Shown: piece after piece, positions 2,685 through 9,323 of the stretch | Numbering within the stretch: the stretch's first letter is position 1 | How the letters are laid out: each line of letters begins with the position of its first letter | Notes under the pieces: model-generated | What the model saw: only the letters and a program-made list of their open reading frames with translations | Databases searched by the model: none | What the model was told of the DNA's origin: nothing | Assembly (NCBI GenBank): GCA_001773455.1 | Contig: MEWR01000014.1 | Span: forward strand, 40,835-80,791 | Reading direction: 5' to 3' | Origin: Candidatus Abawacabacteria bacterium RBG_16_42_10 | GTDB taxonomy: Bacteria > Patescibacteriota > Gracilibacteria > RBG-16-42-10 | Length of the DNA stretch: 39,957 bases | Position numbers and translations under genes: made by a program

Positions 2685-2758
2685 GGTTTGATTTATCAAA
2701 CCAGTGAGTCATCAAACCAGCGAGTCATCAAACCAACGATTTATCAAGCCTACATTGC
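2685..2758 (+). repeat. Hairpin GGTTTGAT-TT-ATCAAACC followed by a ~16-bp tandem repeat (ATCAAACCAGYGAGTC, about 4 units, last two degenerate)
   Basis: Direct reading; units start at 2695, 2711, 2727, 2743. Confidence 0.8.
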
Positions 2759-3184
2759 ACCTTTACTTGCTCGGCTTTTGAAGGACCGAATAATGGAACT
2801 GAGTCCATCTGCAGACACTGTTGTCCCTTCTCCATCAACACCTTGCTGTGACGAATAGCGCATTCCAAATGGAGAAGCACCATCTTGGATGACAAATTCT
2901 TCCACGGCAATGCCATTATTAGAAATCACTGCAATTGCTCCATCAGCGAGTCGAGCAATACTGACACGTCCCCTACTAGATTCACCCTCTACAATCTCCT
3001 TACCACCCAACAAAGAGTGTAATGCTCTCATATAATCGATATCCATTGATTCTCTTACCGTAGAACGAATATCGCTGACCATTTTCTGCCCTTCTGGCAG
3101 TTTCATCACATCCATCGCATGAGGATTCACTTGAGCGAGTCTCTCATCACCTGGAGTCATGGGTAATCCTGGAGCTTTCTTCAT
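2750..3184 (-). CDS. Hypothetical protein (144 aa)
   Basis: Open reading frame with no competing longer ORF; no family recognised. Confidence 0.6.
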   Translation of the reverse strand: MKKAPGLPMTPGDERLAQVNPHAMDVMKLPEGQKMVSDIRSTVRESMDIDYMRALHSLLGGKEIVEGESSRGRVSIARLADGAIAVISNNGIAVEEFVIQDGASPFGMRYSSQQGVDGEGTTVSADGLSSIIRSFKSRASKGAM

Positions 3185-3211
3185 AAAAGATTGGGGTTAT
3201 TATTAAGTAAA

Positions 3212-4423
3212 TCATGTCATTGTAACACACTTTTCTTTTATTTTGGAAACTCCCCTCTCCGTTTTGAATTGACAAAGATCAGTACTCCCAAAAAGCTTAT
3301 AAAAAAGAAAATATGCAAATTGACTCAGACGAATAAGATACCCGACACAGTGGAGCAGAAAGTTGGAGAGTGAAAGCTTCCTGTAGAAAATCAGATCTAG
3401 CATTACTTGAAAAGCAAACAATCCCAGCACCAGCATATGTCCGCTCACGAGCGCGTTGATGAAAAAAATGATACTTACGTATTCCAACACATAAAAAACA
3501 TACAAACAACATCCGATAAATATATTTTTAATGGTAAAGGGTATATTGAAACTTTGCAGTGTTCGAAAGAAAGAAAATACTCCGGAAAAAATCGGTATCA
3601 TCTGGCGATAAAGATTTTTAAGATTGGGTGGCCCTTCCACATAGGTAAAAAAGGGTAGTGAGACATAACTCCTCTTATGATGATCAAGAACATATTTCAG
3701 TGAAAGATCATCATTGGGTTCGGGTATATGTTTGATGAATTTCCAAAGTTTAGGTGAATAAACAGTGGTTGCTCCCATTGGATAATTGAGACCTAATGAG
3801 AACTTCGATGGGTATTCAAAAGCAAGCACCCTTTCTCCGTGGTGAAACATCAACGCACGTATCCATGGACCTGAGCTCTGATCACCATTCATCTTCGGTA
3901 CAAACGAATACACCGCATGTTCTGGATGCTTTGATATATATTGATCAGCCAGGAGAAAGTCTTGCCATCGCATACGCGCATCACAATCAAAACTCACTGT
4001 ATACGGTGTTTCCTTATATTTGGAACGAATAAAATCAAGCGCAAAGTTAACTTGTGTCGCTTTTGTACCATCAAGAGAAGGACATAAAATACAATTAATA
4101 CGTTTCTTATACAAACTTTTAGCAATAAGTTTAAGCAACATATCGCTCGTAGACGGCACATTATTTTCCTTCTGAGTGCCAACAAATATGATCTCTACTT
4201 GAGGGAACCAGCGTAGAAATCTTTCATAATAAAGAAACGTCTTTTCGATAATGTGATGTTCGCGAAATACTGGGAAAAGAAAAACATAATGATGTTGAAG
4301 TTTCGTCGGAATATGAAACCCACGTCTCTTTCTATAATCGACCAAAGAAAAACAGCTCAGTACAAGAATCAATAATCGATAACCGATAACAAATACCAGA
4401 ATCACTATTTCAATAATGGCCAT
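3212..4423 (-). CDS. Membrane-associated family 2-like glycosyltransferase
   Basis: N-terminal TM, FLFPVFREHHIIEKTF, VSFDCDARMRW (DxD-like), C-terminal hydrophobic helices. Confidence 0.75.
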   Translation of the reverse strand: MAIIEIVILVFVIGYRLLILVLSCFSLVDYRKRRGFHIPTKLQHHYVFLFPVFREHHIIEKTFLYYERFLRWFPQVEIIFVGTQKENNVPSTSDMLLKLIAKSLYKKRINCILCPSLDGTKATQVNFALDFIRSKYKETPYTVSFDCDARMRWQDFLLADQYISKHPEHAVYSFVPKMNGDQSSGPWIRALMFHHGERVLAFEYPSKFSLGLNYPMGATTVYSPKLWKFIKHIPEPNDDLSLKYVLDHHKRSYVSLPFFTYVEGPPNLKNLYRQMIPIFSGVFSFFRTLQSFNIPFTIKNIFIGCCLYVFYVLEYVSIIFFINALVSGHMLVLGLFAFQVMLDLIFYRKLSLSNFLLHCVGYLIRLSQFAYFLFYKLFGSTDLCQFKTERGVSKIKEKCVTMT

Positions 4424-5259
4424 AGAGCAAGATTATGTATAGCCTGATCTTTATAGGGATAATTGTTTGCATGCCCTTCATAGGCATAATAGGAAACAGC
4501 CCCAAGAAACTCCAAAGCCATATATGCATTCAAAAGGGTCACTTCTTTTTTATCTGGTTTTCGTTGTAAATATTTTACCAGCAACATTCTTACGATATCA
4601 CTCTCATTGTCCAAGACACGCCAAGAAAATTTCGCCAAGTCAGCAAAGGGATGATCCACTCTAGCTCTTTCAAAATCTATATAGCCAATTTCCCGAGATT
4701 CGGGACTATAAAGGATATTATTGGCATTGAGATCGCCATGAATAAAACCATTGCCATGTACCGTCAGAAGCGTTGTCCTTACACTTCCGGCTACTTCCGA
4801 AACCAATTTCTTTTCTTCCTCCTTCACATGAATGCTCTCACAAATCTTTCTCACATAAAGATCTATCATTTCTCTCTGTATACCATTTCTCTTGTGTAGG
4901 CCTCGAAAACCATGCAAGCTCCTAAGACTCACAACAAATTGATCAAAAGCACCATTATCACAATCATCTTTAGTCAGGGGGCGACCGGGTACACAAGATA
5001 GGATGTTAGCCAGTAAATTTCTATGGTGAGCTCGCAGTCGAGGAAAAACAAAATTATCCTTCTCAAGCTGGAGCAAAACAAGAGATTCATTATCGAAGTT
5101 TTCTGGCTCTCCATAAATTTTTACAAAAACAGCTTCATCATCCAATATGGCCCGGATGACAGTATTTTGAAATCCTTTACTACAGGAAATAATTTCTAAA
5201 CGGGATAACAAATCAGTGATAGATTCGGTTGATGCAAATTGCCTCATAGTCAGCATCAT
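4405..5259 (-). CDS. APH/choline-kinase-like phosphotransferase
   Basis: Brenner-like motif FIHGDLNANNILY and IGYIDFERARVDHPFADLAKF. Confidence 0.8.
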   Translation of the reverse strand: MMLTMRQFASTESITDLLSRLEIISCSKGFQNTVIRAILDDEAVFVKIYGEPENFDNESLVLLQLEKDNFVFPRLRAHHRNLLANILSCVPGRPLTKDDCDNGAFDQFVVSLRSLHGFRGLHKRNGIQREMIDLYVRKICESIHVKEEEKKLVSEVAGSVRTTLLTVHGNGFIHGDLNANNILYSPESREIGYIDFERARVDHPFADLAKFSWRVLDNESDIVRMLLVKYLQRKPDKKEVTLLNAYMALEFLGAVSYYAYEGHANNYPYKDQAIHNLALWPLLK

Positions 5260-5800
5260 TAAAGATATATTGGGTCACCGAACAGTTGTTAAACTTCAAC
5301 GCTGTAATTTCATGGGACAAATCCTTCATATACCCCACGACAGCCTTGATGACATTTTCATGAGTAATTATCGCAATATGTTGAGCGGGATTACTCTCAA
5401 TATTCTCCCTCATAAATTGCGCCAATCTGTCCTTCAAATCAGCCAGACTTTCCCCTCCTTCATGACGAAAATGATAAGGATCTTGAAAAAAACTTTCATT
5501 GATATGGGCTGGAATATCAGACAACAAAGTTCCTGTCATTGAACCGAAATCCTGTTCACGTAATTGATCACAAACAACTGCCTGGAGAGAATTATCAAAT
5601 AACAATCTTGCTGTGTCCTGTGCTCTGGTATTGCTACTTACAAAAACACTTTCAATGGGAAAATCCTTAAGTTTCTGAGCTAAATTCTTTGCTTGCATGA
5701 TGCCAATTTCGCTCAGAGGTGTATCAATACGACAACCCATGAGCATCTGCCTTTTATTGCCCTCGGTTTCTGCATGTCGAATAAAATAAATATGTTTCAT
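5213..5800 (-). CDS. Histidine phosphatase superfamily protein (phosphoglycerate mutase-like)
   Basis: N-terminal YFIRHAETEGNKRQMLMGCRIDTPLSEIG; FVSSNTRAQDTA; IAIITHENVIKAV. Confidence 0.9.
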   Translation of the reverse strand: MKHIYFIRHAETEGNKRQMLMGCRIDTPLSEIGIMQAKNLAQKLKDFPIESVFVSSNTRAQDTARLLFDNSLQAVVCDQLREQDFGSMTGTLLSDIPAHINESFFQDPYHFRHEGGESLADLKDRLAQFMRENIESNPAQHIAIITHENVIKAVVGYMKDLSHEITALKFNNCSVTQYIFNDADYEAICINRIYH

Positions 5801-7395
5801 AAAAGTTGGTTAAGTAGATAAAGCCCACGAAGAAAAAATTGCTGACGCATCTGATAGTCAGAATAAAACTTCCCCATACTGAGGAAGCACAAAGCTTCAA
5901 TCCACAACACATCCTTCGTCTTTATTCCCATGTTATCAAGGTAAGGCTGTAAAAAATACAATGTATTCATAGGATCACTTGGCATTTTCAGAGTATACCT
6001 CTGAGTATCATAACACTCAAAAAAGCTTAAGTTGTTTTTGATGAATTCATAACCTCCATGGAAAGAATGAAGAAATTTCCCAAAGTCATATCGTATATCG
6101 CCATAGACCGAAACTTGTCTTCCCCACTCGCCACGAGGATCAACAAATATAAAAATATGTCGCAAAGCATCATAGAGAATATTGGCACAGTGAAAATCAC
6201 CATGTATATGACGAATAATAGCAGTATCCGCCAAATCCCTTGCCCTACTGAGAACAATGCTTTTTAATTTTGGCCAACCAATAACTTTCACGTTATTGAT
6301 ATACAGCGTATCTACAAATTGCAAAGGAAAAGCAGCTTTTTCGGAGAGTTCTTCCACTCTATCGACAATTCTCTTGCCATACATCCACGCGGTCTCTGTA
6401 GACAATGCATCATCAGTACACTTTCCATAAAAATCTTGAATCATCTTGGACCAAAGTTCGTCCACAACATACTGTGTGTTTTCTTCCTCCATGCTCTCGT
6501 ACAGAAACAAATATGCCAAAGACTGTAGGGGTTCATAACTCATGGTAATTTTCCCCTCATCAATTTCAAATATCTTGGGAAAATATTGTGGTACTTTCAG
6601 ATTGCGGTAATAAAACCGCTCCCCTACAAGGAGCTTACCGCTACTCTTTTTTACAATACTTTGCCCTCTTCGTATCAGTTTATTTTGCCCACGAGCGTCG
6701 AAAGTAGTATGAGCATGTAAACGCTTTAAATTTCCGATGTCGCTCCAATCATTTCTTGGTCTTACGAGCACAGGCTGAGAAGTTTTATAACGTTCAATTA
6801 AACCACTGACCTGCAACTCGCCATGAATTGGTTTGGAATAGGACATGGCATATTTCAAAGCTTGCAAAAGAATATGTATACGATGAAAAAAGTAAACACC
6901 ACAAATAGCATCTTTTCCCTCACAAGATACGGGCTTATCAACCAAAGATAATAACTGTTTATCAGTAAACTTGATCATGCACCAATCACGTGGATTTATA
7001 ACTTTTGCCGACAATACCCAGCTTTGCTGCAAATCACTCTCATGTAATGGCATCTGTAAGAGAGTATCAGCCAGGTGAATAAGTACTTGATCTGCTTTGG
7101 CGATTTCTTCTTTTGCCTGAACAATGCTATCGAGAAGCCCGAGAGCACTTTTCTGAACAATAATTTTGATAGGGAAACGATAACGATAATGCTCAACAAT
7201 TTTCCGAAAACGTGCGACATGGTCTGATGCCACGACAATAACCACCTGCTGAATAGCAATATGTTTATAAAAATCAAGGATACGACTCAATGCAGGTTTA
7301 TCACCGCAAGGGATTAATGCCTTAGGGAAATAATTATTAAGAGGGCTCAATCTCCTTGCCCTTCCCGCTGATGGAATGATAAGAATGCGTTTCAT
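5797..7395 (-). CDS. Fusion protein: N-terminal NTP-transferase (nucleotidyltransferase) domain + C-terminal APH/choline-kinase-like domain
   Basis: N-term MKRILIIPSAGRARRLSPLNNYFPKALIPCGDKPALSRIL; C-term IIRHIHGDFHCANILYD...FVDPRGEWG. Confidence 0.85.
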   Translation of the reverse strand: MKRILIIPSAGRARRLSPLNNYFPKALIPCGDKPALSRILDFYKHIAIQQVVIVVASDHVARFRKIVEHYRYRFPIKIIVQKSALGLLDSIVQAKEEIAKADQVLIHLADTLLQMPLHESDLQQSWVLSAKVINPRDWCMIKFTDKQLLSLVDKPVSCEGKDAICGVYFFHRIHILLQALKYAMSYSKPIHGELQVSGLIERYKTSQPVLVRPRNDWSDIGNLKRLHAHTTFDARGQNKLIRRGQSIVKKSSGKLLVGERFYYRNLKVPQYFPKIFEIDEGKITMSYEPLQSLAYLFLYESMEEENTQYVVDELWSKMIQDFYGKCTDDALSTETAWMYGKRIVDRVEELSEKAAFPLQFVDTLYINNVKVIGWPKLKSIVLSRARDLADTAIIRHIHGDFHCANILYDALRHIFIFVDPRGEWGRQVSVYGDIRYDFGKFLHSFHGGYEFIKNNLSFFECYDTQRYTLKMPSDPMNTLYFLQPYLDNMGIKTKDVLWIEALCFLSMGKFYSDYQMRQQFFLRGLYLLNQLL

Positions 7396-7397
7396 TG

Positions 7398-8705
7398 TCA
7401 GTGTATATGAGATAAAACATGCTTCGCACAGGCAAGAACAGGCATTGCAGGATTAAAAAGTCCGTTTGTAGCCAGTGCTGCGGCCGAGGCAATAGCGACA
7501 TTCGGCAAATCATGAAGAAAGAATCTCTCATCCAGTACATCAGGGTATGCAGCACCCCCAGACACATGACCCGCAAAATACCAAGGAAAATGTTCATTGA
7601 GCAAAACAAAATCCTGAGTTGGAAAAATCTCTTTCTGCAAATAATCAACAAGAAATTTTTTGTGTATGTCTAATGACTTGTAAAAGAAAGAGCTAATCTT
7701 ATAGCTGCTATTGTCCCACAATTGACCTTTTTCCAAGGACCCGGATTGTATAAGAAAATATAGTCTATGTGAACGTATATTGGGTATATGTACTACGGCG
7801 GCAATACGTATAAAATGTTTCACAAAATGGTCTGCAGTATACTGGGGAAATCTCTTCAAACACAGTTCAACCAAGTCTTTCCTAGGTGGAGTAAAATGAA
7901 ACTCCAAACGAAAACGAACTCCCTCTACCTCATAATCTTGATAACATATCGCAGGGAGAGAGGTTCGCGGAATATCTTGCTTGAGAGAGAGAAAACCGAA
8001 AGAAAGTTGAGGATGCTCAGAAAATCCACGTCCTATCAAGTCTCGCGTTTGTTCATTTACTCTGAAACCATCATACGTATTTTGGAGCAGTGCTATCGAC
8101 CCTGGTGTATGAGCTGCAACTATAAATTTCTTAGCATAGATAACACCTCTTCTGCCTTTGTCATCATATCCATGGATACTTGTTGCCTTACCTCGGTCTA
8201 TAAAAAAACTTTCAGCATGAAAGTATTTCGGCTTCAATTTCAAGAAATCCCATTGTGGTTTTTGTTTCATCCAATACTCACCGTACGCTTCACGAAACTC
8301 AAAGTCGGGACCGCTAAAAGTTTGATGCGCGCTTTCAAAATAGCGCAAAGGCTCGCGAGAAAATTGTTTCTGCAGATAATCTATTGCTGAGGAACAACTT
8401 GGACTAGCACCTATTTCCCGAAGACTTTTGATATTCAATTCTTCTCGAAGCTCATCACAGTATCTTTGCCATTTCTTCAGTGTGACAGGAAAATAACTCA
8501 TGTCATCGTCTTCCGGCCAAGATATGATGCCAAAGGCTTTTTCCTGCCACGTGTCCTTGCGACCAAGATACTGAGCCAATTGATATGACTGAGTGCTTGT
8601 GAACGTCGGATATTCACTGCTTACCCAAGCAATGTTTTTCCCTTGTAATTTTGAGGCAATATACTTCCCCACTAGCCCCCCACCTATAACGCAAATATCG
8701 TACAT
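7398..8705 (-). CDS. FAD-dependent oxidoreductase, GMC-like; start probably at 8705 or 8711 rather than 8762
   Basis: N-terminal Rossmann motif YDICVIGGGLVGKYIASKL; RGFSEHPQLSF; C-terminal HVSGGAAYPDVLD...NVAIASAAALATNGLFNPAMPVLACA. Confidence 0.8.
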   Translation of the reverse strand: MYDICVIGGGLVGKYIASKLQGKNIAWVSSEYPTFTSTQSYQLAQYLGRKDTWQEKAFGIISWPEDDDMSYFPVTLKKWQRYCDELREELNIKSLREIGASPSCSSAIDYLQKQFSREPLRYFESAHQTFSGPDFEFREAYGEYWMKQKPQWDFLKLKPKYFHAESFFIDRGKATSIHGYDDKGRRGVIYAKKFIVAAHTPGSIALLQNTYDGFRVNEQTRDLIGRGFSEHPQLSFGFLSLKQDIPRTSLPAICYQDYEVEGVRFRLEFHFTPPRKDLVELCLKRFPQYTADHFVKHFIRIAAVVHIPNIRSHRLYFLIQSGSLEKGQLWDNSSYKISSFFYKSLDIHKKFLVDYLQKEIFPTQDFVLLNEHFPWYFAGHVSGGAAYPDVLDERFFLHDLPNVAIASAAALATNGLFNPAMPVLACAKHVLSHIH

Positions 8706-8853: not shown

Positions 8854-8930
8854 GTATCCGTAGCTCAGCTGGATAGAGCGCAACCCTGCGGAGGTTGAGG
8901 TCAGAGGTTCGAATCCTCTCGGATACACCA
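8854..8930 (+). tRNA. tRNA-Arg(GCG), CCA encoded
   Basis: Full cloverleaf: acceptor GTATCCG/CGGATAC, D-stem GCTC/GAGC, anticodon stem CAACC/GGTTG with loop CTGCGGA (anticodon 8888-8890 GCG), T-stem AGAGG/CCTCT with TTCGAAT, ACCA 3' end; body closely resembles bacterial tRNA-Arg(ACG). Confidence 0.97.
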
Positions 8931-9212: not shown

Positions 9213-9275
9213 AAATTTTTGTTATTACTGTTAAACATATATAACATATTTATCTGATTTTTGTAATCAAAAAAA

Positions 9276-9294
9276 GAGGTAGACGATCTACCTC
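9276..9294 (-). terminator. Rho-independent terminator for the minus ORF at 9324
   Basis: GAGGTAG-5nt-CTACCTC perfect 7-bp stem followed on the minus strand by TTTTTTT. Confidence 0.8.
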
Positions 9295-9323
9295 CTTGGA
9301 AATTATATTTTATCTTAAATTTA

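Follow-up and report, generated by a model that had tools for sequence, protein, structure and literature searches.

The GDP-heptose route, with HddA, GmhB and HddC, is a precedent for a pathway built from a kinase, a phosphatase and a nucleotidyltransferase, and in the fused enzyme Fkp the kinase half is of the GHMP type. Fkp of Bacteroides unites L-fucokinase and GDP-fucose pyrophosphorylase in a fused form (PMC12732313, PMC11982464), and the recycling of peptidoglycan sugars by MupP, AmgK and MurU is an established case of kinase, phosphatase and nucleotidyltransferase (PMC5371407). Phosphatase, kinase and nucleotidyltransferase make up the standard logic by which a sugar phosphate becomes an NDP-sugar (MupP/AmgK/MurU, PMC5371407; Fkp, PMC12732313), and we used this logic as the basis for reading the mechanism of the locus described here. 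It lies in a stretch of 39,957 nucleotides (the window) from Candidatus Abawacabacteria bacterium RBG_16_42_10, whose genome of 1.1 Mb is 96% complete, and it appears best read as an activation cassette that would feed a membrane glycosyltransferase by the logic of the GDP-heptose or MupP/AmgK/MurU systems. On the minus strand, at 3212-8705, the list of open reading frames places five genes in tight succession, with a 2-bp gap or overlaps between them:

Gene 1, 7398..8705, minus strand: putative divergent GMC-superfamily (FAD) oxidoreductase, 435 aa
Gene 2, 5797..7395, minus strand: fusion of a nucleotidyltransferase (residues 1-~240) and an APH-like kinase (residues ~250-532)
Gene 3, 5213..5800, minus strand: histidine phosphatase of branch 1 (CobC/PspA-like), 195 aa
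Gene 4, 4405..5259, minus strand: second APH-type small-molecule kinase, 284 aa
Gene 5, 3212..4423, minus strand: membrane-anchored GT-A (GT2-like) glycosyltransferase, 403 aa
tRNA-Arg(GCG), 8854..8930, plus strand: found with ARAGORN, divergent and upstream, the 5' limit of the operon
Sixth open reading frame, 2750-3184, minus strand: 144-aa protein, 27 bp beyond the glycosyltransferase stop

Genes 1 and 2 lie 2 bp apart, genes 2 and 3 share the 4 bp of an ATGA, and the two junctions that follow overlap by 47 bp and 19 bp, these last two values being uncertain by some tens of bases because the starts of the APH kinase and the glycosyltransferase are not fixed by conservation. The frame of gene 1 is nested in a longer TTG-start frame reaching 8762. 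Translation table 11 gives a good reading of the window; some genomes of the same class have several TGA codons in frame, in keeping with the Gracilibacteria code. The window genome is therefore likely to come from a Peregrinibacteria-like member. Inspection by eye revealed no Shine-Dalgarno motif upstream of the operon starts, and a promoter scan scored no better than shuffles. Past the tRNA-Arg gene, at 9273-9297 on the minus strand, a terminator-like hairpin is followed by a T run. The idea of a recently acquired island beside the tRNA found no support, as the GC3 of the operon genes (0.33-0.36) is within the range of the remaining window.

The only other genome of the same family in our set (G001, 'Candidatus Gracilibacteria', a second genus; hereafter the sister genome) has all five families, arranged in the same order, on a contig of 5.9 kb (C79, JAGNZB010000072.1) whose end cuts the GMC gene and leaves its C-terminus only. 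There a 2-bp gap (306/309) separates the GMC gene from the fusion, and the next three junctions overlap by 4 bp (1805-1808), 50 bp (2349-2398) and 10 bp (3191-3200). Identity between the two loci is 35% for the GMC protein, over its C-terminal 101 aa only, 38% for the fusion overall and 47% across its kinase half, 53% for the histidine phosphatase, 33% for the APH kinase and 39% for the glycosyltransferase. Since the genes flanking the unit differ between the two genomes, the five genes have been kept together without surrounding synteny, and with order and junctions conserved across two genera it is very unlikely that they adjoin by chance. The original prediction of five minus-strand genes joined by overlaps or a 2-bp gap is thus borne out in its coordinates and by near-identical junctions in the sister genome, and the gene-neighbourhood search that might have exposed an unconserved arrangement instead found all five families together there. 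The frame at 2750-3184 was considered as a sixth member and dropped, having only a weak partial match elsewhere in the sister genome; it is unlinked to the five-gene unit there, and the operon consists of exactly five genes.

Among about 350 genomes of the class, no further carrier of the five-gene set was found. Taken singly, the kinase profile was strong only in the window genome and the sister genome among 353 class genomes, with further matches in G172 (5e-15) and G123 (6e-7), and the glycosyltransferase profile recovered only the same two class genomes plus a distant homologue in a G167 locus. No third genome with a copy of the GMC protein was found among 79 relatives, and a search of 370 phylum-wide genomes gave only a short weak C-terminal match, in G650. 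When genome contigs were scanned, the window fusion alone as query gave no match and the two-row fusion alignment had the sister contig as its sole match. In viral contigs no glycosyltransferase match was confirmed, and neither the GMC protein in plasmids and phages nor the glycosyltransferase in plasmids had a match. We conclude that this is a genuine operon, conserved between two genera and restricted to their lineage.

The five enzyme types that had been assigned to these genes largely hold, with the GMC and GT2 calls falling under Pfam thresholds and being recovered by profile and fold matches, and sequence motifs indicate intact catalytic residues in all five window proteins. Gene 1 matches the large subunit of fructose dehydrogenase (FDH) in three collinear segments (PDB profile, E 3e-5), which include the N-terminal Rossmann motif and the C-terminal domain, and Pfam GMC_oxred_C matches weakly, below threshold. 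The likeness to FDH extends to the catalytic-His region, with which His380 (GHxxGG) aligns, and to the C-terminal Asn motif, where Asn418 lies within an NP motif; both residues are conserved in the sister genome. An FAD Rossmann motif together with a C-terminal domain holding His and Asn thus suggests a GMC enzyme, an assignment that is weak in sequence. Unlike the FDH large subunit (544 aa), the 435-aa gene 1 protein has no transmembrane segment predicted from hydropathy, and the operon lacks the partner heme or small subunits. In gene 2, Pfam NTP_transferase matches at 7e-16 and APH weakly, and the motifs GRARRL, PK, AD, WSD and HGDFHCANIL/DPRG are intact. Gene 3 matches Pfam His_Phos_1 (9e-40), PDB CobC (2.5e-19) and, below cut-off, TIGR03162 (2.5e-31); its catalytic Arg8-His9, Arg59, Glu82 and His147 are all present and conserved in the sister genome. 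Gene 4 matches Pfam APH (1.3e-14), its PDB matches are macrolide and aminoglycoside kinases, and the alignment shows intact HGDLNANNIL and DFE motifs. Gene 5, which has no Pfam match, contains a DxD motif (FDCDAR) and PEPxxDDxSL, with hydrophobic helices at its N- and C-terminal ends by hydropathy. Structure prediction, which had been proposed as a check, gave a divided result: in the AlphaFold model of gene 5 (pLDDT mostly 62-91 in the block of residues ~40-170) the GT-A core matched PcManGT, mannosylglycerate synthase and hyaluronan synthase, the last with a Foldseek E of 7e-6 (VIA Z 14.6, rmsd 4.9 over 203 residues), whereas the GMC model of gene 1, built on an alignment of two sequences only, reached just pLDDT 33.7. 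By its model, therefore, gene 5 has a GT-A fold with DxD.

The fusion belongs to a family (phrog_24015/4098) for which the libraries searched hold no named model, phrog_24015 matching both domains over residues 5-525 (8e-29). Its kinase signature, HGDxxxxN...DPRG...GDxRYDxxK, is found in the window and in the sister genome. Using tblastn and profile searches, we found relatives, full-length or kinase-only, on Citrobacter, Caballeronia and Legionella plasmids, in Enterococcus, Stenotrophomonas, Pseudoalteromonas and Synechococcus phages, and in other Patescibacteria, where some lie in glycan loci. Those of Citrobacter and Caballeronia sit in capsule loci, and that of Legionella in a locus with WavE-type glycan genes. 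Besides the window and the sister genome, 15 loci were read (Citrobacter, Caballeronia, Legionella, Enterococcus phages 9183 and Planchet, S-SKS1, DLP_6, G172, G694, G681, G652, G572, G579, G382 and G465); these are not all independent, since the two Enterococcus phages are close relatives. A phosphatase accompanies the kinase in 13 of the 15, one gene away in G652 and G572 and beside it in the others, so that pairing of kinase fusion and phosphatase in glycan loci is directly seen. The 13 enzymes are small EcbF/BcbF-type HAD or KdsC-like HAD phosphatases, the EcbF/BcbF type being identified in Citrobacter by a model match (2.4e-49) and elsewhere by similarity; in G172 this HAD is fused to a nucleotidyltransferase. 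The loci without an adjoining phosphatase, phage DLP_6 and G465, are also the two longest tree branches. Fragment G123, where a KdsC-like gene adjoins too, stands outside the 15-locus count, and the unannotated phage match XG4 was left unscored. An adjacent HAD phosphatase is thus usual, not universal, in the family, and in the window and the sister genome its place beside the fusion is taken by the histidine phosphatase; no EcbF/BcbF homologue (TIGR01689) turned up elsewhere in the window genome or in the sister genome. In the kinase tree these two pair at 100/100, deeper forks being mostly unresolved. The literature searched yielded no characterisation of the fusion, of WavE/HAD or of BcbF.

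Several of these loci deserve a remark of their own. Synechococcus phage S-SKS1 SWZG_00042 (L045:3568-4995), annotated as 3,4-dihydroxy-2-butanone 4-phosphate synthase, is actually a nucleotidyltransferase-RibB domain fusion, and downstream follow the family's kinase, an EcbF/BcbF-like HAD and a transaldolase, which looks like an uncharacterised phage sugar pathway. In Enterococcus phages 9183 (L040:4657-6632) and Planchet (L046:4657-6629), a HAD phosphatase and the nucleotidyltransferase-kinase fusion sit among genes for thymidylate kinase, thymidylate synthase, dUTPase and RNase HI, and might serve DNA or surface modification. Two Patescibacteria loci (L077:4461-8832 and L078:4805-9199) contain a row of KdsC-like phosphatase, shikimate-dehydrogenase-like protein, nucleotidyltransferase-kinase fusion, class II aldolase-like protein and cupin, another candidate sugar pathway.

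Every aligned family member has intact core kinase residues (HGD, Asn, Asp). The window, the Enterococcus phages, phage DLP_6 and the KdsC-type loci have intact nucleotidyltransferase motifs, while Citrobacter, Caballeronia, G172 and G694 have lost part or most of them; in the sister genome G-x-G-x-R, the lysine of PK and the two metal aspartates are all gone although the kinase is intact, so that nucleotide activation cannot be taken as a conserved step. These losses beside a retained kinase would fit a scheme that we regard as rather unlikely, in which nothing is activated by a nucleotide: the fusion would be a kinase only, its N-terminal domain having a structural role, the state of phosphorylation would be set by the second kinase together with the phosphatase, the GMC enzyme would oxidise the group, and the glycosyltransferase would use an ordinary donor such as GDP-mannose. 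ManC, which is present in both genomes (split over two contig ends in the sister genome), is consistent with this, and so is the close ranking of the glycosyltransferase core with the mannosyltransferases PcManGT and mannosylglycerate synthase. However, every nucleotidyltransferase motif is intact in the window. A separate nucleotidyltransferase gene adjoins the lone kinase of Legionella and the fusions of G694 and G172, whose own domain is degenerate, so activation seems to be wanted there. In the sister genome the other nucleotidyltransferase matches are two contig-end pieces resembling one ManC, plus a third; a stand-alone replacement was not found, which is provisional as that genome is 93% complete.

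Our preferred reading, a lineage-restricted cassette for donor synthesis and transfer to a surface glycan or glycolipid, is about an even call. The cassette probably serves to oxidise and phosphorylate a small sugar-like molecule and to link it to a glycan of the cell surface. In the scheme that we infer, in its substrate, reaction order, NTP and acceptor alike, the soluble GMC flavoenzyme would act first, oxidising a hydroxyl group on a small sugar or polyol; both APH-type kinases would add phosphate to it, one of them, most likely that of the fusion, at the site of later activation; the histidine phosphatase would take off the other phosphate, as HAD phosphatases do in related loci; an NDP derivative would next be formed by the nucleotidyltransferase domain; and the membrane GT-A enzyme would move the group onto a lipid or glycan acceptor. 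Donor synthesis is favoured by the gene order and junctions common to two genera, the intact catalytic residues of the window proteins, the GT-A core of gene 5, the precedents named above, and the occurrence of fusion relatives in capsule and glycan loci, mostly beside a phosphatase. Against it count the loss of the nucleotidyltransferase motifs in the sister genome, the lack of export, polymerase or lipid-carrier genes adjoining the operon, the weak GMC assignment, and the need for two kinases, which is left without explanation. Of the original prediction, the activation and attachment of a small group therefore agrees with the neighbourhoods of the fusion relatives, but a complete-looking pathway with NDP-activation was too strong a description, given the motif loss in the sister genome, the lack of an assigned acceptor or substrate, and the absence of adjoining glycan-export or polymer genes. 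No characterised close homologue was found that would place the genes in a known pathway.

Two other readings have to be weighed. The GMC enzymes include the choline oxidases, and choline kinases are relatives of APH, which would suit a LicCA-like arrangement where kinase and cytidylyltransferase yield a CDP-alcohol (choline- or ethanolamine-like) and a choline-oxidase-like GMC enzyme acts on the same alcohol; gene 4 has a weak Pfam Choline_kinase match, and LicC is among the PDB matches of gene 2. We hold this improbable, since RmlA/GlmU-type matches on gene 2 beat LicC by orders of magnitude, the nearest GMC match is fructose dehydrogenase and not choline oxidase, and a GT-A glycosyltransferase stands in place of the expected LicD-type transferase, no LicD match being found among the operon proteins. 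Biosynthesis of a soluble metabolite, cyclitol- or antibiotic-like, in place of a surface glycan seems very improbable: cyclitol antibiotic pathways also use GMC, APH kinase, RmlA-like nucleotidyltransferase and phosphatase types, but the genome is only 1.1 Mb, the strict five-gene unit has no cyclase, aminotransferase or exporter, the glycosyltransferase is membrane-anchored, and the fusion relatives lie in capsule loci.

If the donor-synthesis cassette is real, this bacterium has, despite genome reduction, retained a pathway dedicated to an unusual surface group. The fusion family is spread over capsule loci, phages and Patescibacteria, yet we found no named model for it, and the five-gene version, which brings a phosphatase, an oxidase and a transferase of its own, would be a convenient unit for finding its substrate; the motif loss in the sister genus offers a natural way of telling which domain is the essential one. 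We think it possible, though doubtful, that the locus encodes an undescribed pathway to an oxidised NDP-sugar or NDP-polyol peculiar to one Gracilibacteria/Peregrinibacteria-type lineage. Such a pathway would combine a cytosolic GMC flavoenzyme and two APH-type kinases with a histidine phosphatase and a fused nucleotidyltransferase, and its nucleotidyltransferase step would already be replaced or bypassed in the sister genus.

Campylobacter CDP-glucitol synthesis was set aside as a parallel because its cytidylyltransferase is a separate protein, its reductase depends on NAD(P), and no kinase takes part (PMC10918830). With MupP/AmgK/MurU the operon shares a phosphatase, an APH-like kinase and RmlA-like nucleotidyltransferase logic; it differs in the fusion of two domains, another phosphatase superfamily, an extra oxidoreductase and a dedicated glycosyltransferase, and AmgK and MurU model scores are far below cut-off. 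Fkp likewise has nucleotidyltransferase and kinase in a single polypeptide, whereas gene 2 is much shorter and has an APH-like kinase half with an HGD motif, not a GHMP one; no Fkp model was among the NCBIfam matches listed for it. The GDP-heptose route resembles our proposal in forming a bisphosphate by a kinase, followed by phosphatase and nucleotidyltransferase, but the operon has no GmhA isomerase, its kinase and phosphatase come from other superfamilies, and the HddC model reaches only 7e-8, far below cut-off. The EcbF/BcbF-associated capsule fusion family (TIGR01689 neighbour) has the same two-domain fusion and the HGDxxxxNIL..DPRG..YGDxRYDxAK signature, and on the Citrobacter and Caballeronia plasmids its members adjoin phosphatase and GT2 genes, as in the window; the window differs by a histidine phosphatase in place of HAD, an extra GMC enzyme and second kinase, and the lack of ABC transporter or WavE genes. 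The kinase, nucleotidyltransferase and phosphatase logic is thus already known, and what this operon would add to it is one oxidation and a second phosphorylation.
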